Of a DNA stretch of 64,000 nucleotides, positions 4,516 through 27,803 are shown in pieces. The position numbers and the translations under genes were made by a program. How positions within the stretch are numbered: the first letter of the stretch is position 1; every line of letters begins with the position of its first letter. This DNA comes from Nemania diffusa (lineage: Eukaryota; Ascomycota; Sordariomycetes; Xylariales; Xylariaceae): positions 1,612,001 to 1,676,000 of the forward strand of contig JBBPUQ010000002.1 of assembly GCA_038501195.1 (NCBI GenBank), read 5' to 3'. A model generated the notes under the pieces. The model had not been told where the DNA came from, ran no database searches, and was given only the letters and a program-made list of their open reading frames with translations.

Positions 4516-6338
4516 TAACAACTGCTACTTGGAGAGACACCTCAGAGGAGGCCTTAAGCTCGTCCACGCAAGGGGTGAAGGCGGAGCTAAGCTGGGATAC
4601 TACTCACTTAGAGGAAGGGTAATTGTGGCGGCCATGTTGGTTCGATCAATATACACTAGGGATGTCGGAGAGCACTATATTGGATATGCATGAGTCTAAA
4701 CTGCCGCGTCATTCATAGTGCTACGCGTAACACGAGGAAATGATGCAAAACAACCGTCGCAAAGCAAAGTTGTTGATCTATTGACAGTGATGATGAACAC
4801 AAAGGAGTTAGTAATGACAGTCCTCTGTTGATGATAGGTATCATGAGATTAGGATGGATTACTCTATCTTTAGATAGATAGGGATAGGTACCTAATACAG
4901 TCAGGTGAGCTGGTAAATAGCTGAGAAGGGACCCCTTAAACCCGAGATAGGCACTGTAGCAGCTGCCTGATTACGCAGTAGAGGCACCTCTGTATGGATA
5001 CGTAGCTAAGTAGTTAGGTACCTAGCCGTACGTAGCAGGAGATGCAGCTTATTATGTTCCGAGACAGCTACCTAGGTACCTACTTAGAGCTGGCTGGTGC
5101 AGCAGCTGACCCAGGGCGCATCATCATCAGGGTCTCTCCGAGATCTAGAGGGCTCTAACAGACCAATCAGGTGCTGCCTTGTGACTACTAAGCCGCGACT
5201 GATGAGTGCAGGGTGTCTCGGGTGGCTGGACTTACCCTACGCACACTGCAGCCCATTCGCTATAAGTTAAGTAGTGTAATCTTTCTATAACAAAACAAAC
5301 CGACTAAACCCAGCTATTTGCGAAGCTGATTCGTGCCTCTCTGTGCATCTGCGCCCCCTTTGATGGAACCTACGCTGTAGTGTAAGTGCGTTACAGATAC
5401 AGTTTGCTGACATAGGTAAATACTGTGTTTGTGGTTAATACTACCCACCGCAGGTACGTTACTAGCGGTCATATTAGGTACCTGGGTAGGTTGTGGGTAG
5501 GGAGGTAAGTAATCGAAGAGGCCATCTTCATATCGATTGTTCATCACGTACACATTTCCATATCTTGGTATGCACCAGACATAGGATTATTATATCCTTA
5601 CTTTAAGAAGCCAGTTCAATGATTCTCTGGTCTTGATAAAGCGTGACTGATAAACGCTAAAGTCTTTTTTAGAAAAATAGGAGAAGCGGATACGAGGTTT
5701 TGATCAAACTCTTTCTACCTACGTCTTTACATCTGCAAATTGTACAGCCCACTACAGCCAGCCCACCTCTTTTGCATGACCTATTTGTCTACTACATACT
5801 ACCTAACCTATACACCGAGATATATGTATTGTACATATCGAACACTACCTATCCTAACCCACGGTAAGTGTACCTATACGAGATATAACCTGATCTGACA
5901 TATGTAGAGAGGTAACTTCTCCACGTTGATCAGGGTCTGCCTTGCACAATCTTCCCTGCAGCTGCAACGTTCCCATAGGGAGTCGGCAATTCTTCCTTGC
6001 TCTCTCCCTCTACATGCTCATTTCTTGTACCTACATACCTACTTACATATAAACATACCTACATACGTAAACACATAACAAACCAAGCCAGGCTGGACAT
6101 GAACACATAACGCATAACACGTTCATACACATCGGTATAAATGCGTGGTCAAGGCCAGCCGAATTAGCCATTCGTCGGCCGAGTGCTCTAGCCCCTCAAA
6201 AATACTCCAGTAACCCAATCTTCCCTCTTGCACCAACGAACGCCGCATCCCCGTTACCCGTTACACGCCACGCATATGTAGGTACAACAACGTACCTATG
6301 GCAAACGGATGGTGCAGCACAAGGTATCAACAGACAAT
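4516..6338. other. Intergenic region between divergent genes
   Basis: No gene is supported. The region is the shared 5' side of the GILT-like gene and the hexokinase-like gene. It is dense in short TACC/GGTA and TAGATA words, especially at 4885-5090 and 5990-6075. The 79-residue frame near 5314-5553 has no family motif. Confidence 0.55.
4885..5090. repeat. TACC/GGTA-rich palindromic simple sequence
   Basis: This tract has repeated GGTACCTA, TAGGTACC and CTACCTAGG words that can pair with one another. Similar tracts recur between genes throughout the window. Confidence 0.6.
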
Positions 6339-8061
6339 ATGTCGACTCCGGCCCCAGTAGCATCCGAGTTGGAGCGCTTTCTCGAACCCCTCCAGATCGA
6401 TGTGACGAAAGCTCACGTGCTCGCCCATGAGCTGTACCAGGCCTTCCAGCACTTGGCTGCCGAATCGCTGACACAGTTTCTCCCAACTCCCATATCTGAG
6501 TCCATCCTTCGTCCAACAGGGGGACGCGAGAGAGGGCGGTACGTCTCCTTGTTGATTCTGGCGTCGGATCCAGCTTATATATCCTACCTCAAATTGCTAA
6601 CTGCTGTGCTAGATATCTCGCTATAGACATGTATGCCCCACAAGCTTACGTTTTGTGGTATTTTGCTAGCTAACATGAATGAACAGCGGCGGCACGAATT
6701 TAAGAGTTGGATTTATTGAACTCTTGGGCAGCGACAGTGCTCCCACCACGAATGGAGTCACCAGCAACGGGCACTATTCCGACCATCGGACACCGTCCAA
6801 TCTTCGCAGAGTCTTGGAAAAATCATGGCCGATCCAAGAAACTCTGAAGAAGGAAAACCCCGACTCCTTGTTTGCCTGGATCGGCAGCTGCATTGCCGAA
6901 GTTGTGAGAGAGGGAGTCGAAGCCTTTAGCCTGGACCGAGACAGCGAGCTTCCAATGGGCGTGACCTTTAGCTTCCCCATTGTGCAGAATACCTTGTCGG
7001 ATGCTACTATCATGGCGATGGGTAAAGGATTTGCTATCACCTCAAAACTAGATCTTGGGACATTGTTAGTCAATGGATATGAAAAGTCCAAATCTTGTGA
7101 CCTGCCACGCATTAAGGTCACGGCGATATTGAACGATGCTGTCGCCACCTTGGTTTCGTTCATTTATCAGTTTCAAGAAGATCACAGCCACAAAGCAGCA
7201 ATGGGGTTGATATGTGGCACAGGTACCAATGCGACAATCCCCTTACGACAAAGCACCCTCAGCTCTAGGAAATTGCCTGGGAAGATAACGGTTGGGGCCG
7301 AGGATGCAGCCGAGGATGTCAAAGTTGCAGTCAATACGGAATGGAGTATAAACGGGTCTGCTCAACCCCTACGGAAGCTCGGTTTAATAAGCAAATGGGA
7401 CAGTCAGCTCGACGCTGAAGGGGAAGTTCCGGGTTTCCAGCCGTTTGAATACATGACGTCAGGAAGATATTTAGGCGAACTGGGCCGTCTCATGTTCTTA
7501 GACTTCCTGAAATCGCACTTTGGCCTGTCAGACGAAAACATCCCAGGGCAGTTATTACACCGATTTGGGCTCACGACAACCTTCCTAAGCCATTACCACC
7601 CACCGCGCCCAGCCGTCTTACTCCATGAGCTCGAAGTCGAATTTCCACCGTCTACCTCTCAGGTACCCGTCGAATGGACTGAAGAGATGGCCATGTCGTT
7701 ATATCATATCGCCAAATCTATTGAAGTTAGGGCTGCGGCGCTTGTTGCGGCTGCGATTATAGGATTATTAGCCTGTGCTGACGACATACCACTCTCAAAG
7801 TCGCTAGTGGACGGGACAACCCGATACTCAGCAAATGGAAATACTGAAAAGATGAACCTCGTGATTGGTTACACTGGCGGCTGCATTGTACACTTCCAGA
7901 GCTACTTGTCAGATTGCCAGGTGTTCTTGGACTCAATTCTTGAGGCAGAATTTGGGGATCACGCTCCTGTGCAGTTGACATTAAGCCCCTGCCACGATGG
8001 AGGAATAACAGGCGCTGGCGTCTTGTGCGGTGCTTCTCAAACAACCTCTAAAGACATGTAA
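6339..8061 (+). CDS. Hexokinase-family protein, probably an atypical (HxkC/HxkD-like) member
   Basis: Three exons, 6339-6538, 6613-6630 and 6687-8061, encode 530 residues. The 18-nt middle exon supplies YLAID so that the spliced protein reads GRYLAIDIGGTNLRVGF, the canonical phosphate-1 motif. Later landmarks are TFSFP, LNDAVATL with the Asp at the catalytic-base position, GTGTNA, VNTEW and SGRYLGEL. It departs from active enzymes at MGKGF (normally TKGF) and at YTGG where DGS is usual near the C-terminus. Aspergillus has non-catalytic hexokinase paralogs with a regulatory role in protease and carbon control, and this looks like that group, which is inference. The ATG at 6339 has A at -3; an in-frame ATG at 6309 would add 10 residues. 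Confidence 0.85.
6613..6630 (+). other. 18-nt microexon of the hexokinase-like gene
   Basis: The segment is preceded by CTAG and followed by GTATGC. Joined between the upstream CG (phase 2) and the downstream C, it gives R-YLAID-I and restores the family motif that is otherwise missing. Both flanking introns are short, 74 and 56 nt. Confidence 0.9.
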
Positions 8062-8483
8062 GATAAGACGTGTGGTTCATTTCATTGCGTAGTTAGATTG
8101 TACGATGCCATGACGAATGAATACCCGAGATACAGAATAGAAGGAATAGATAGGGTATGTAGCATAGCGCGGTGTGTTATAGGTCGAAATAAGCCTATAC
8201 GATTTGAAGGAGTCTTACCTTGCATGTGTTGCCTAGATAGTCCTGCATACCTACTATCTGCCTTACATGTACCTGCGCCTCAATAGGCTTTCTCTGTACC
8301 ATATACAGCTAGGGAGCGAGCCATGACAGAGACTATCTATAAGAACAATAACTGCAATCACGAGTCGCACAACATTAGTTACTGCATGGTTGAGTTTATG
8401 AGAAATTTCTTAGGTACAAGGGCTCGATCCGTAATCAAGTAAAATCTTGCTTACTAGAGAACCCCAAGGGAGGGGCCGAGGGA
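8062..8483. other. Intergenic, hexokinase-like 3' end to MFS 5' end
   Basis: I see no gene or recognisable repeat here. It holds the 3' flank of the hexokinase-like gene and the promoter of the MFS transporter. Confidence 0.55.
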
Positions 8484-16589: not shown

Positions 16590-18242
16590 CTATTTGATAT
16601 CGAACCAATTGCTGAAGTGGTTGCCGGGGTCAACGCGACGCTTGACTGTCTTCAGTTTGCACAGGCTTTTGCCGTAGATGGTTTCCAGAGGCTCGTCGCC
16701 ATGAGCAAAGTTGATGTACCTATGCATCCATGTTAGATAGTGCGCAGCGGGTAGGCGAGAATAAATAAAGAGATGTATATAAATAAAAAAGCAAAACTTA
16801 CGTAGCATCCTGGGTGCGGCCACTCGTGGACCTCCACAGCTCACGGGCAGCAACGCCCAAGGCCTCGGCGTCAGCGTCGAGGGCCGGGTCGTCGTACCAG
16901 GGGATAACGAAGGCGTTGAAGTTGACGTCGCGGTGGGGGAAGGAGGCCGAGTTGGGGTCGATGGAGCGCGCCTTGGTCCACGAGTACGTCTCCATGAGCA
17001 CGCCGCTGTTCTCGGCGCCGGGCTTCTGCTGGAACTCGACGTACTTGTCCCAGACCTGGCGCCAGGTCGCCGGCACCATGGTCTGGAAGCCCGCGCTCCA
17101 GCCGGGCTTGCGCGAGCCGCGCGCGCAGAGCGCGTCGCCGCCCGAGTTCCACTGGTTGTACGGGATCACGGCCGTGGTGTCGGCCACGGGGCCGATGGCG
17201 TAGAGGCTCGCGTACGCCGCGCGCCCCGTCGTCGCGTTGCCCCTGTACATGAACGGCGACGCCACCACCACTGGCGAGTTCGTGGGTGGCCCGCCGGAGA
17301 GGAAGTACATGAAGACGACCATGTCGGGCCCCAGCGTGAGGTCCTGGATGGCCTGCACGACCTGCTCGAGCTTGTCGGGCGTGAACACGAGCATGCCGGC
17401 CCAGGCCATCAGGTCGGCGTCCGACTTGGCCGGGTACGCCTTGACGGTGGCCGAGGTGACGATGCCGAAGTTGGCGCCCGCGCCGCGCAGCGCCCAGAAC
17501 AGGTCCGGGTCCGAGGCCGCGGTCACGGTGCGCACTTGGCCGTCGGCCGTCACGACGCGCAGCGAGAGCACGTTGTCGATGCCGTAGCTGTACTCGCCCA
17601 TCAGGTTGCCGTAGCCGCCGCCCAGCACGGCGCCGAGCGCGCCCACGCAGTTGCAGTTGCCCGTCACCACCAGCGCGCCCGCGGCGTACGCGTGGTCGAT
17701 CGTGTTCTTGATGCTGGAGCCCCCGCCGATCGTGGCCTGGGTCTTGTCCGCGTTGAAGGTCACCTGGTCCAGGGCTGCCAGGTTGATCACGACGCCGTTG
17801 GTGCCTAGAGGGGACGTTGCCCATCCACTGCCTCCGTTCTGAGCCACGAACGGGATGTTCTTTCTCGAGAGGTACTTGACCTACGTAGTTTCAAAGGTTG
17901 TTAGTGAATTTTTCCTTTTTCTCTTTTTCTGATTTTTTGGGGGGGTTGCTTCTCATCTCCTTTCGCCAAACACGATATTTTGAGCGCGTGATAGAAAAGA
18001 ATGTAAGATCAATATCTCACCGTAGCTGCAACATCGGCCTCAGTCTGCACGTTTACAACAGCACCTGGGTTCGGCTCCTCGTAAGTGCTCCATCGTAGTG
18101 GTACCGTCGTGTTGATGAGATTACTGCTCGACAACAGAGGGCTTAATTCAGAGTGCAGGCGCTGGGAGACAGTGATATTGTCGGCGGCTGCTGTTAGGGC
18201 TGCCATGGCGAGGCCTAACATAAACTGAACGTTGAGCTTCAT
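16590..18242 (-). CDS. Secreted FAD-linked oxidoreductase (PCMH-type FAD domain plus berberine-bridge C-terminus)
   Basis: Exons 18021-18242, 16802-17880 and 16590-16719 join in frame to 476 residues. Residues 1-20 form a signal peptide (MKLNVQFMLGLAMAALTAAA). The FAD-binding domain follows, with FVAQNGGSGWA, a TGNCNCVG segment, and GALGAVLGGGYG. The C-terminus YINFAHGDEPLETIYG and NHFSNWFDIK is the berberine-bridge (BBE) tail. The histidine that carries covalent FAD in classic members (GGH) is replaced by Ser in GGSGW, while Cys residues are kept in NCNC. Members oxidise alcohols, sugars or alkaloid-like intermediates and are common in secondary-metabolite loci. The codons are very GC-rich compared with the flanks, so all frames are open here and the reading rests on motifs. 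Confidence 0.87.
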
Positions 18243-22836: not shown

Positions 22837-25759
22837 ATGACGCCCTCGTTAATATCATCAGAGGCTCCACTTCGCCCTCCGTCTCATCAAGCTCTCACAG
22901 TCAGGTCTCTCCTGAACACTACAGCAGAAGAGCGTGAAAAAATCCTTGAAGATGTTGAATACAACATTTTCTCCTTTCCTGCTGGTCTCGTCACCTGTGA
23001 CTATCTCTCCGACTCGGGGACTTCGGCGATGACAGATGTTCAATGGGCCGCAAGTAAGTTGCCAAAAACTGCTTCACTCTCAGTTTTCGCATCCAAAAAG
23101 CCCCTTCCTGTCTAAATAGGAGTCAGATATACAATTTCAAGTCAATTTGATTCTAACATGATACAAACTTATAGTGATAAGAGGAGATGAAAGCTATGGC
23201 CGTAACTGGGGTTACTATTGCCTCCTTGAGGCATTTCGGGATGTGTTTGAGCGAGGCAATTCTCGCCAATATGCATTCCAGAGTGTCCTAACAGGAACTG
23301 CCGATGTTGAATTCTACAAAAACACTTTATTAAAGGCCCACGAAGGTGGCTTTGTGAATGGTGGGATTTACCAGCTTGAAGACCCAAATTTCTTCATCGT
23401 ACCGCAGGGTCGCTGTGCGGAGTTTCTACTCTTTTCCACACTAAGGGGTGTGAGAGCTGAGATTATGCACGAGAAAGCCTCTATACCGCCCATAATCATC
23501 AGCAACGGTTTTTTTGACACTACTGGTGCCAACGCTGCTGCGGCGGGGTTTCGTCTGGAGACGTTCACTCAGCCCGGGCTGACCGATCCTTTCCCCGAGG
23601 AGCTGATTGGTAAACAAAATCCCTTCAAGGGAAATCTGGATGTAGCTGCCACCTCTACGTTCTTGGATAAGCATGCAGGTCAGGTGGCGTTGATATTGAT
23701 GACCATCACAAACAACTGGGCAGCCGCGCAACCCGTATCAATGGCCAATATCCGAGCAGCCTCCGAACTAGCCGGGCGAAAAAAGATACCGCTATTTTTT
23801 GATGCGTGCCGATTTGCGGAGAATGCCCTGTTCATCCAGGACTTCGAAGCAGGATACTCGGACAAGTCCATCGCCGAGATCGTCCAAGAGATGTTCTCGT
23901 ATGTCGATGGCTTCACCATCAGTCTGAAGAAAGATGGCCTCTCAAATATGGGTGGTGTCTTATGCTTCCGTGACAAGTCGTTATTCGCCCAACTGTACGA
24001 AGGCATAGGGAACCACCTAAAGGAGCGGCAAATTTTATCATATGGAAACGACTCCTATGGAGGAAGTAAGTTGTTTTAAAAGTTTGTGGATGGTTGGTTA
24101 CGACGTCTAATAGGGATCGAATACTAACATAAATATGTAGTGAGTGGGCGTGATACGATGGCCAGTGTGGTCGGGTTATACGAAGTCACAAAAGAGCCCT
24201 ATCTCCGCAACCGTATCTCCCAAGTCCGCTCTTTCGCCCAAAAACTCTTGGCCAACAATATATCGGTGCTCTCACCACCGGGGGGCCACGCAGTATACCT
24301 TGATATGGACGACTTCTTTTATGGCTGTGACAGGTCTCCAGGTGACTTTGCTGCTGTGGGGTTTACTCTAGAACTTCTCAAAGAGTACGGCATCCGAGCA
24401 GCTGAGTCTGGTCCATTTGGATGGCAATGGGACAAGAAATCCCCTGAGGAGCAGAATAAGATCCCTAATCTAGTCCGGTTTGCTGTTCCTCGCCATGTCA
24501 TGTCCGACGAGCACATCAACTATACAGTAGGGGCTATTAAGAGGCTACACGATCGCAGACACACGATGCCAAATGTTACTATTACTAGAGGCAAGGACAT
24601 GCGACTTCGACACTTTGCATGCGGCATGAAACCTGTTCCTGTAGATAAAACACTTACAGGGACATATCTTAGTGAGGCTAGCCGACAAATATCTCACCTC
24701 TCAAGAGCAGTTGGACAAGATGAGGCCATCACAGCGCAACTACTCAGTGCTCTTAGCTTGGCAGCGAGTGGATGGGGCCAGTCATCGATTCCTGAATCTA
24801 TCAATACATCAAGCTGGGTTTCTTCTGTGAGCAACGACCATGCCCCCTTTGAGTACTCGGTCGTACTAGATCAGGGTACGGGGGAAGCCGAGTTAAGGTT
24901 TCTGATCGAAGCCCAACCAGAAGGAACCAGCATTGAGCAAGTACAAGAGAGCGCCCTCAAGCTCAACGAAAGCATTGCAGCAGAATATAGCGCAAGGGTC
25001 TCGCTATCTCGTTTCGAACTTGTTCGGGATATCTTCATGCCGAACAAACCTGATGGAAACTTTGCCGCATGGCATAGTTACGCGGCAACGAAGAACGGGC
25101 CCGAGTGGAAGATCTACCTCTCTCCCCGTGCGTCTGGGACAGCCAAGTCCTTGTCGTCAACCCGTATGGCGTTCAAGCGTCTCGGCATGAGCAGCGACTG
25201 GGATCTTGTGGAGAAAACCATGACATCTGCCGACTACGTCGTGTACATTTCACTGGACCTGTCTTCAGAGGCGGACAACGCCCGCGTCAAGGTGTACATT
25301 GCCCACGACGCAGCATCCGCACTTACAATCGCACAGAAACATGAGGCGATATGTCCCTACGCATCCGCGTTCGAGATCCAACGGTTCTGCGAATCCATGT
25401 CTGGGGGCTCGCTTGGCCCCTATACGGGAAAGCCGCTTTTATCCTGTTTTGCCTTCACGAGCAAGGCGCCAGGCCGACCCGTAGGGACAGTACACTTCCC
25501 GATCGACGCGTATTCCGAGAATGACGGCGAGGTCCAGGAGCGTGTTGAGCGATACATGCTCGTGAAATCTGTCCCATCTCTCTACAAGCAACGCTACAGA
25601 AAAGTCATCGCCGCAGTGCAACGTAGACCCCTGGCCGAGAGGCCTGGAATTCATAGCTGGGTGAGCCTAAAGCAATCCGCGGGAGGTGCCCTGTCAAATG
25701 CCTTCTATCTTTCGCCAGAACTCTTTGCCCCAGTGCAGGTACCCACAAACCTTGGGTGA
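22837..25759 (+). CDS. Tryptophanase-like lyase fused to an ABBA indole prenyltransferase
   Basis: Exons 22837-23053, 23175-24065 and 24141-25759 give 908 residues. Residues about 20-536 are a PLP beta-eliminating lyase: DSGTSAMTDVQWAAMIRGDE, PQGRCAE, DACRFAENA, SLKKDG with the PLP lysine at K325, PPGGHAVYLD and VRFAVPRH. D187 (FFDTTG) matches the Asp that marks tryptophanase rather than tyrosine phenol-lyase, and S459 sits where phenol-lyase has Arg. Residues about 540-905 are a DMATS-type prenyltransferase: PFEYS with E607, ELRFLIEAQ, WKIYLSP, ISLDL...ARVKVYIAH, TVHFPIDAY and SWVSLKQS...FYLSPELF. These blocks resemble bacterial IptA, CymD and LtxC. Inferred reaction: Trp plus an allyl diphosphate gives prenyl-Trp, then prenylindole, pyruvate and ammonia. 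No signal peptide is seen, so it is probably cytosolic. Confidence 0.9.
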
Positions 25760-26571
25760 GTGACTTCCTCCCATATGGTGTCATCGAATACCTATGTAAT
25801 GTGCAAGTAGGCAACAGAGCCCGTGGTGTTGATATTGTACGAAGGGTGAAGACTTATGAGTAGATTACGACGGAGGGGTGAGAATGTACCGTTAATCCTG
25901 TCAAGGAATCAATAGTATTTGTACGCAGGGTAGATTTTGCATACAAATGTTGTAGTATTGGTATAGAAGCCTCGAGGACTGGAAGTTGTGGCATCGAGAA
26001 ATAAAGTCCTCCATACCACACTCGCCCCACAAAATATTGACCTTCAAATGACCCACACTTTACGAAACCTAAACAAGCTTACAGATTATCTAAAGTCAAT
26101 GTCATAACAATTACCGCATAAAAAAAAGGTTAAATTCTAAAAAATATGCTTTATTAAATCTTAATAGTATTAATGTCACTATATTAAACTCTTTGATGCA
26201 AAAATAAAGTAAGTAAATGCGAGTAATTGCTATTAATAGACGGCGATAACTGTAGCGCGAGGTGTAGCAAGGGTAACGGTCGGAAACCGTGACAAACGGT
26301 CGGGCGTGTGCACCTTGTATTTCAGTGGAACGCTAGTCGCGGCCGAGGACCAAACGCGTAGCATCATACTGAGCTCCAGTGTCAGGCAAAGCGTATTCAT
26401 TGACAGACTCAACTTGTCTTGTGCCGATTTAGTTATAATGTGTAAAGTCGATGTTAAATGTGTTGACCGTTTTAGATAGGCACTTCAATTGCAGCGTTTA
26501 CAACTTTGGGGCCGATTTTATCGGCCAGTATTGACGCGATGCTATAAAACTGGGAAATAGCAGCGGGAAAC
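25760..26571. other. AT-rich intergenic region
   Basis: No gene is supported. The stretch 26090-26240 is strongly AT-rich with poly-A and TTAAT words. It separates the fusion gene from the HNH gene on the same strand. Confidence 0.5.
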
Positions 26572-27803
26572 ATGATGACTGGACGAGTGCAGTACATGAA
26601 ATGGTTTGATTTTCCCTCGACTGAGGCACTCAGTCCGGCTCAACGGGATGATGCCAAGCGCCGATTCTACCGCATCGTCAACCACTTTCTCCTCGCCTCC
26701 GAAATCGACAGCAGCGCGCGCAGCCAAACCTACAGCCCGCCTCGCCTCATTAGCCTTACATACAAATATGCCCTCTCTAACGAGGCACGCGACAATTTCC
26801 TACGGGCATTCTTCGAAGCCATCGATGTCCCCATCGCGAGAGATGGCACTGGAGATGACGATGGAGATCCCGAGACCTTGCGCTCCTCTGTTTTCGCCTT
26901 TGCCGACTACTTGATGGATCAGTTTTTCCTTCCTTGTCAGTCCGTTCGCCGCTTTGCTACGGACATCCCGCTTCCGCATCATAGCTAATGCTTCTTTCCG
27001 CGGACATAGTAAAAGCATCGGCCAGGAAGACGCCGCAGCCGTCGCCTGTTTTTCATTCCGGTGTCGAGAGAGTACAAGGCGGGCCGCAGAGCTTTGCCGG
27101 CACACCGGACCGGCTCTCGGCTTTACGAGGAGCCTGTCTTGTTCGCGACCACCACCGCTGCGTCGTTTCACATAGCTTCGACAGTTCTGAAGCACAAGCT
27201 CGTATGGACAAGGCAGGCGAGACGAACGCTCTGGATGACGATGGTCATCTGCTATACCAAGACCCGATTCGCCCTGAACCGTTGGAAGTGGCCCATATTA
27301 TTCCCCATTCCTTGATGAAAGTTGACGCGAGTTCTGAGCTTAGCCCCTCTAAGCGAGCAGCTCTCGCAATTCTAAACATGTTCGATACCGAAGTTGTACA
27401 CCTGATTGAAGGTGGCGATATCGACAGGCCACGGAATGCCCTCACGCTCACCGGATCTTTCCATGTCCACTTCGGCGAGTTCAAGATATTCTTTGAGCCG
27501 GTTTCGGACTCGCAGCCTCATACTTATCGTATCAACTCATTCTTCTCCCGCTACATGCTACCAGAGTTTCCTCTCACCCGGACACTCTACCTGAGCGAAA
27601 ATAGGACCGTAGACCCTCCCTCGTCTCGACTGCTTGCTCTCCACTGTGCCTTCGCTCATATTCTTCACCTTTCTGCAGCTGGTGATTACATCGACAAGCT
27701 ACTGCACGAGATGGAGGGGCAGGGCGTGTGCGCGACAGATGGTTCAACCGAGTTGGATCGTCTGTTGAGGCTTGGATTACGAGGGTGGTCCGTTAGTACC
27801 TAG
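26572..27803 (+). CDS. Fungal HNH-domain (HNH_2 type) protein
   Basis: Exons 26572-26935 and 27010-27803 give 385 residues. The junction (GTCAGT donor, ATAG acceptor at 27006-27009) restores FFLPLKASARKTPQPSPVFH, a segment typical of this fungal family. The HNH-like core is CLVRDHHRCVVS, then LEVAHIIPHSL, then NMFD and a downstream LTLTGSFHVHFGEFKIFF. The N-terminal 120 residues are a helical region with no known role. Such proteins are multi-copy in ascomycetes and their biological function is not established; nuclease activity is only a fold-based guess. It lies just downstream of the fusion gene on the same strand, with an AT-rich gap between, so co-regulation is possible but unproved. Confidence 0.8.

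Follow-up and report, generated by a model that had tools for sequence, protein, structure and literature searches.

Does a single fungal gene encode both a tryptophanase and an indole prenyltransferase (PT), and, if so, what would such a protein make? The question is raised by one locus in a 64-kb stretch of contig C2 of the 55.6-Mb Nemania diffusa genome (the whole stretch analyzed is referred to below as the window), where a gene at 22837-25759 on the forward strand, consisting of three exons and two GT-AG introns, encodes a protein of 908 amino acids with no internal stops. A first-pass annotation of this DNA had claimed that a tryptophanase-like lyase and a DMATS-type PT share one frame and that the join between them lies inside one exon. 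Both claims hold: each half matches its own family, the frame is free of stops, and the join (residues ~536-545, at 24638-24667) falls well within exon 3, upstream of the 25,000-25,100 interval named in that annotation as a point where transcripts might split. The fusion, one gene with both domains, is thereby confirmed.

Domain content of the fused protein

A Pfam search of the two halves recovered Beta_elim_lyase (PF01212; residues 55-498, E 3e-50, 171.6 bits against a cut-off of 27) and Trp_DMAT (PF11991; residues 591-763, E 1.1e-11, 45.2 bits against a cut-off of 25), the latter placing the C-terminal half among ABBA-fold enzymes; the first-pass annotation had staked its claim on both halves matching their families, as they do. 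The NCBIfam tryptophanase model NF009709/PRK13238 covers residues 16-535 (E 1.3e-140, 469.3 bits against a cut-off of 285). Searched against PDB sequences, the lyase half finds tryptophanase 8sl7 first (455 bits), followed by other tryptophanases and by tyrosine phenol-lyases. The PT half finds presumably bacterial prenyltransferases, with one weak exception, GliD1 (9iia; E 0.17 in one search and 0.01 in another), which is presumably fungal. The top-scoring solved PT folds include tryptophan complexes of PriB, 6-DMATS, 5-DMATS, IptA, and CymD.

Tyrosine phenol-lyase was considered as an identity for the lyase half and ruled out by the score against TIGR02618, which lies under the equivalog cut-off (262.4 versus 720.7 bits). 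At the position of I396 in Escherichia coli TnaA, where tyrosine phenol-lyase carries Arg381, the fused protein aligns S459.

Intron 1 has two alternative in-frame acceptors, which would shorten the protein by 3 or 4 residues. The 908-residue form is backed by its length, which equals that of P0001, an annotated protein of Hypoxylon argillaceum (908 amino acids, 98% identical).

The fusion is widespread in fungi

A database search with the whole protein returned 675 proteins at E <= 1e-10, the best 120 of which were examined. Parts of both halves are matched by 106 of these 120, and most of both halves by 78; the other 14 match just the tryptophanase half, and no match is confined to the PT half. 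Of the 28 others among these 106, many are fragments of ~530-550 amino acids that carry the end of the lyase half together with the PT. The tryptophanase-only records partly look like cut gene models, the tail of P0084 resembling the start of a PT. Source organisms named among the matches listed are, among others, Xylaria, Hypoxylon, Biscogniauxia, Podospora (PODANS_4_1090), Triangularia, Colletotrichum, Metarhizium, Diaporthe, Corynespora, Lentithecium, Mycena, and the liverwort Riccia sorocarpa. With these genera assigned to their usual orders and classes, the fusion is widespread in fungi, across both Ascomycota and Basidiomycota.

This distribution bears on whether two adjoining genes were read as one through an error of gene modeling or assembly, an explanation for which we found no supporting point. 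It is made very unlikely by the unbroken exon across the join together with the 78 near-complete fusions among the 120 matches listed, and single metagenomic proteins, such as P0082 (530 amino acids), also span the join; we assign it a negligible probability.

The first-pass annotation knew of no described fungal enzyme with this architecture. The 78 relatives mean that the architecture is not unique, but the part concerning publication stands: we found no description of a fungal tryptophanase–prenyltransferase fusion among the matches listed from open-licence PMC papers, which is not proof of absence in print, and two near matches (PMC9876896 and PMC3870968) do not treat the fusion in the portions available. 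In the records listed, the fused proteins are mostly annotated 'tryptophanase', 'beta-eliminating lyase', or 'PLP-dependent transferase' (PLP, pyridoxal phosphate).

Within the N. diffusa genome, the sole tryptophanase matches at E <= 0.001 are the exons of the fusion; elsewhere it has three near-full-length matches to canonical DMATS enzymes and one partial match. A scan of viral contigs matched 37 stretches, none of them a relative.

Active sites and their conservation

In an alignment with E. coli TnaA (L006), residues Y80, D187, K325, Y367, R482, H527, and F528 of the fused protein coincide with Y74, D137, K270, Y307, R419, H463, and F464; of these, K270 is the PLP lysine, and Y74, D137, Y307, R419, and H463 are further residues with roles in tryptophanases. 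The motif positions of the PT half are filled by E607, R622, K693, Y695, R751, K753, Y755, Y827, and Y892, where E607 stands at the position of the catalytic glutamate of DMATS structures and R622, K693, R751, K753, and Y755 at Arg, Lys, and Tyr positions that bind diphosphate in them. Judged by these aligned residues, both active sites are intact in the N. diffusa fusion.

We checked 16 positions across 79 near-full fusions (the window protein and the 78 others). All 79 retain K325, and 76 of them retain E607; 36 of the 79, counting the window protein itself, match the window protein at all 16 positions, and some of the remaining differences are gaps from cut gene models. Pairwise distances in the two halves are correlated (r 0.86 over the 79 sequences, a value reached in 0 of 2000 permutations, whose maximum was 0.20), as would follow if the fusion is passed on as a single unit, although correlated divergence alone is no proof of coupled reactions.

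Predicted function and alternatives

In Streptomyces Type A clusters, IptA prenylates tryptophan at C-6, and the cluster tryptophanase 'may explain' 6-prenylindole, an inference by the authors (Ozaki et al. 2013, PMC3617294, in the portion available); the pathway described there is that of 6-dimethylallylindole-3-carbaldehyde, with iptA and a tryptophanase gene. The first-pass annotation had invoked this parallel. Its pairing of iptA with a tryptophanase stands, and is backed by the bacterial gene pairs described below, whereas the release of prenylindole is the authors' inference, and the name IptB used in the annotation is absent from the available portion of that paper.

We propose the same chemistry for the fusion, which is probably a single-chain bifunctional prenylindole synthase in which prenylation comes first, a reading that we hold with somewhat better than even confidence. 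Its grounds are one frame, two complete domains, retained catalytic residues, conservation of the fusion across many fungi, and the parallel divergence of its two halves. We infer the substrates, step order, coupling, product, and use of the product: the C-terminal DMATS-type half would transfer an allyl group (most likely dimethylallyl) from its diphosphate to the indole ring of L-tryptophan, the N-terminal PLP half would next split prenyl-tryptophan into prenylindole, pyruvate, and ammonia through beta-elimination, and the prenylindole might serve as an antifungal or signaling indole.

Several kinds of evidence weigh against this proposal, and part of that evidence favors other explanations. 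The TnaA equivalog TIGR02617 is missed (273.5 bits against a cut-off of 825.8), as are equivalog NF053783 (305.6 against 750) and the PT model TIGR03429 arom_pren_DMATS (92.2 against 163.85); with these narrower models below cut-off, the halves are therefore assigned to broad families only. Constraint is weaker on the PT half, with a mean identity of 46%, than on the tryptophanase half, with 69%. No co-clustered pathway gene or other core biosynthetic enzyme was recognized among the ten flanking frames searched. In bacteria, moreover, adjacency of the two genes is exceptional and not the rule: within the stretch examined, a tryptophanase lies beside the PT in 2 of 14 PT loci of named bacterial genomes, in 7 of these 14 genomes no tryptophanase scores above the PRK13238 cut-off (several are metagenome-assembled genomes), and 1 of 5 plasmid PT loci examined has one (8 plasmid records matched). 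The pairs that we did find are in Nostoc (L008, tryptophanase upstream of the PT on the same strand), in Polyangiaceae (L014, downstream on the same strand), and on two Streptomyces plasmids, namely NBC_00470 (L023, with a conservon-like cassette and a cytochrome P450, then the PT, then the tryptophanase) and CL7 (L043, a further pair that came from the tryptophanase query).

The lyase pocket also varies: in a Colletotrichum-type group, the position equivalent to H463 is V in 10 of the 79 fusions and L in 1, and one further fusion has a gap there; the substitution to Val may change the lyase substrate range. Such variation would suit the reverse order, in which the tryptophanase half frees indole and the PT half prenylates it, the tether keeping the volatile indole in. 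This order fits the same domains and residues, leads to the same end product by another intermediate, and is compatible with a PT substrate that the sequence data do not fix. We nevertheless regard it as unlikely, given the tryptophan complexes among the best-scoring PT structures and a characterized bacterial counterpart that prenylates tryptophan first (PMC3617294, in the portion available). The proteins with Val at the H463 position are P0061, P0062, P0064, P0066, P0067, P0069, P0075, P0077, P0080, and P0088.

A search with the PT half only (99 proteins) showed that Penicillium, Aspergillus, and Daldinia, and also Monosporascus, have PTs that lack a lyase half; standalone PTs exist, and the two halves can therefore occur apart. 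Four Xylariales proteins (P0014, P0023, P0025, and P0043) lack some PT motif residues, the glutamate being gone in three of them, and keep their lyase positions. These losses, and the branching of the Penicillium, Aspergillus, and Daldinia PTs inside the fusion clade, would fit separate reactions on one chain, with a general tryptophanase joined to a PT that acts on some other aromatic or is being lost. Since the fusion persists over Ascomycota and Basidiomycota and both sites are intact in the N. diffusa protein, we rate separate reactions slightly below the reverse order, and so as doubtful.

Tryptophanases are reversible and also catalyze beta-replacement, and the lyase half might accordingly run synthetically, joining prenylindole with serine, or with pyruvate and ammonia, to give ring-prenylated tryptophan or an analogue. 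Canonical DMATS enzymes make prenyl-tryptophan directly, and the N. diffusa genome has its three near-full-length matches to them elsewhere; we consider this direction highly improbable.

Evolutionary origin of the two halves

The rows of both tryptophanase trees were hand-picked from the listed proteins and from loci whose match was long enough; the second adds Asgard sequences and drops seven rows (duplicates L029 and L035; long branches L032, L033, and L046; P0054; and P0097). In the first, the fused tryptophanase groups with Fusobacterium (100/100), apart from the E. coli-type, Streptomyces, Nostoc, and Polyangiaceae enzymes, with Fusobacterium L042 flagged as a long branch in both trees. 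With Asgard sequences added, a clade (100/99) inside a long-type group (100/100) unites the fungi with Riccia and the metagenomic P0115. The fused tryptophanase has an insertion of ~50 residues (~100-148) that is common to 8sl7 and the Asgard proteins and absent from the aligned E. coli, Streptomyces, Nostoc, and Polyangiaceae tryptophanases; it is 45% identical both to 8sl7 and to L042. Asgard archaeal tryptophanases are 55-58% identical to the tryptophanase half of the Riccia protein in a search with the latter, and the Asgard long-type proteins P0197, P0199, P0201, P0209, P0212, and P0217 are the closest named standalone non-fungal relatives among the matches listed. A captured Streptomyces Type A operon was considered as the origin and ruled out, because its tryptophanase lies in a different clade (100/100 branches separate the fused enzyme from L023 and L043).

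Standalone fungal tryptophanases change place between trees, P0109 and P0118 being basal in the first and P0109, P0118, and P0200 nested in the second. Forcing the fused rows into one clade without these three gave an approximately unbiased (AU) test p of 0.034 for a group picked after viewing the trees, and their status as ancestral or derived appears unstable.

In a 56-row PT tree (hand-picked from the listed proteins and loci with a long enough match, duplicates L029 and L035 removed), the fused PTs form one clade (100/100) amid bacterial-type PTs. A branch of 3.71 changes per site separates them from the three canonical DMATS enzymes of N. diffusa, a distance that rules out an ordinary fungal DMATS as the identity of the PT half. 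The tree has an unresolved backbone and was built from rows other than the IptA sequence itself. Six standalone fungal PTs nest within the fused-PT clade, and forcing the fused PTs together without the standalone PTs (including Monosporascus) was rejected (AU p 1.7e-7, again for a group picked after viewing the tree). Because of this nesting, the standalone PTs probably derive from the fusion by loss of the tryptophanase part in those species, although single records may be cut models.

Some relatives of the PT half are ~600-640 amino acids long, and P0181 and P0188 combine the PT domain with a PF14518 iron-containing redox domain. Long frames of similar length occur at L009 (Chamaesiphon), L015 (Myxococcales, open at the contig end), and L017 (Deltaproteobacteria). 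In Calothrix sp. PCC 7103 (L016), the PT match is split into 6175-6648 and 7755-8084, ~1.1 kb apart, and the gene looks interrupted.

Copies in a liverwort genome

The Riccia sorocarpa genome contains a complete fusion, R1sor_026645 (P0050), on a 31.9-Mb record, and a second gene model comprising the tryptophanase half, R1sor_001468 (P0083), on a 52.3-Mb record; the latter is 85% identical to the former over 60%. The genome was scaffolded by Pore-C into eight chromosomes, and a filter for bacterial contamination is the only one named in the available portion of its description (PMC11735767). The copies are divergent, they lie on two large scaffolds, and their best fungal match reaches 61-62% identity, all of which argues against recent contamination; they may represent a plant gene related to the fungal ones or a contaminant that was integrated. 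The trees favor a nesting of Riccia inside the fungi, but without reaching significance (tryptophanase half, AU p 0.0515; PT half, AU p 0.229; groups chosen post hoc). The 120 relatives listed for the Riccia protein include no other bryophyte by name.

According to the available portion of a review (PMC4491368), 6-prenylindole was first reported from a liverwort (species not named) and is an antifungal compound of Streptomyces. A link between this liverwort compound and the Riccia fusion is conjecture. We tentatively suggest, as a scenario that is possible but well short of probable, a one-time eukaryotic assembly from two prokaryotic genes, a long-type (Asgard- or Fusobacterium-like) tryptophanase and a bacterial-type tryptophan PT, which would have occurred independently of the bacterial pairs. 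The fusion would later have dispersed among Ascomycota and Basidiomycota and also entered a liverwort, making it a candidate for the origin of the 6-prenylindole there.

Gene structure and surroundings

Coordinates are collected in Table 1. Ten frames chosen from the 64 listed in the window were searched for domains, along with the neighboring frame at 26548-26988, which has no Pfam match. The ten comprise a hexokinase, two MFS proteins, a Cef1-type Myb protein, a FAD_binding_4 protein, a fungal rhodopsin, an HNH protein, an M20 peptidase, a Pex2/Pex12 RING protein, and one frame without a match. The FAD_binding_4 product could conceivably act on an indole product.

Table 1. Features of the fused gene and other frames in the window.
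Feature	Position	Strand	Remarks
Exon 1	22837..23053	+	residues 1-72 and base 1 of codon 73; tryptophanase half begins
Intron 1	23054..23174	+	GT-AG (GTAAGT ... TATAG)
Exon 2	23175..24065	+	tryptophanase core including PLP lysine
Intron 2	24066..24140	+	GT-AG
Exon 3	24141..25759	+	residue ~370 to stop (included); tryptophanase end, join, and entire PT half
Tryptophanase domain	22882..24637	+	residues ~16-535; span includes introns
Domain join	24638..24667	+	residues ~536-545, within exon 3; domain borders mapped onto exons
DMATS-type (ABBA) prenyltransferase domain	24653..25756	+	residues ~541-908
K325 codon	23930..23932	+	aligned with PLP-binding K270 of E. coli TnaA
E607 codon	24851..24853	+	FEYS motif; DMATS catalytic glutamate position
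FAD_binding_4 oxidoreductase frame	16801-17880	-	~5 kb upstream of the fusion
Open frame, 766 amino acids	54557-56857	+	

Significance and comparison with known systems

What was known is the pairing of a PT with a tryptophanase; what is new is that one chain takes the place of two genes and that the lyase comes from another lineage, in a widespread protein that the records listed do not label as such a fusion. If the prediction is true, this two-in-one enzyme would make prenylindole from tryptophan and an allyl diphosphate. Because the fusions are mostly annotated as 'tryptophanase' and the like, a class of possible fungal indole metabolites may be hidden under a primary-metabolism label. The same pairing reached with different tryptophanase lineages, as separate genes in bacteria and one chain in fungi, would amount to convergent pathway assembly, and the copies in the liverwort genome provide a candidate gene with which to address a long-standing natural-product question on prenylindole.

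The fusion would work like the Streptomyces Type A system without being a member of it. Both pair a tryptophan PT with a tryptophanase, and the same chemistry is predicted for both; the fusion encodes the two together, whereas in Type A systems the genes are separate and lie in a conservon cluster, in some cases together with a P450, and the L023 and L043 tryptophanases belong to another clade, L023 lacking the long-type insertion. With the long-type tryptophanases (Butyricicoccus 8sl7, Fusobacterium L042, and Asgard P0197, P0199, and others), the fused enzyme has in common the fold, the active site, and the insertion of ~50 residues, but those enzymes are standalone and without a prenyltransferase. 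PriB, Micromonospora 6-DMATS, S. coelicolor 5-DMATS, IptA, and CymD are likewise standalone and are 22-27% identical to the PT half in structural alignment. Among canonical fungal DMATS enzymes, DMATS1 (presumably the Fusarium enzyme) is 16-17% identical to the PT half. The standalone PTs of Penicillium, Aspergillus, and Daldinia, in which the tryptophanase half is absent from the records examined, reach ~49-55% identity to the PT half, and several of them are annotated 'aromatic prenyltransferase, DMATS type'.
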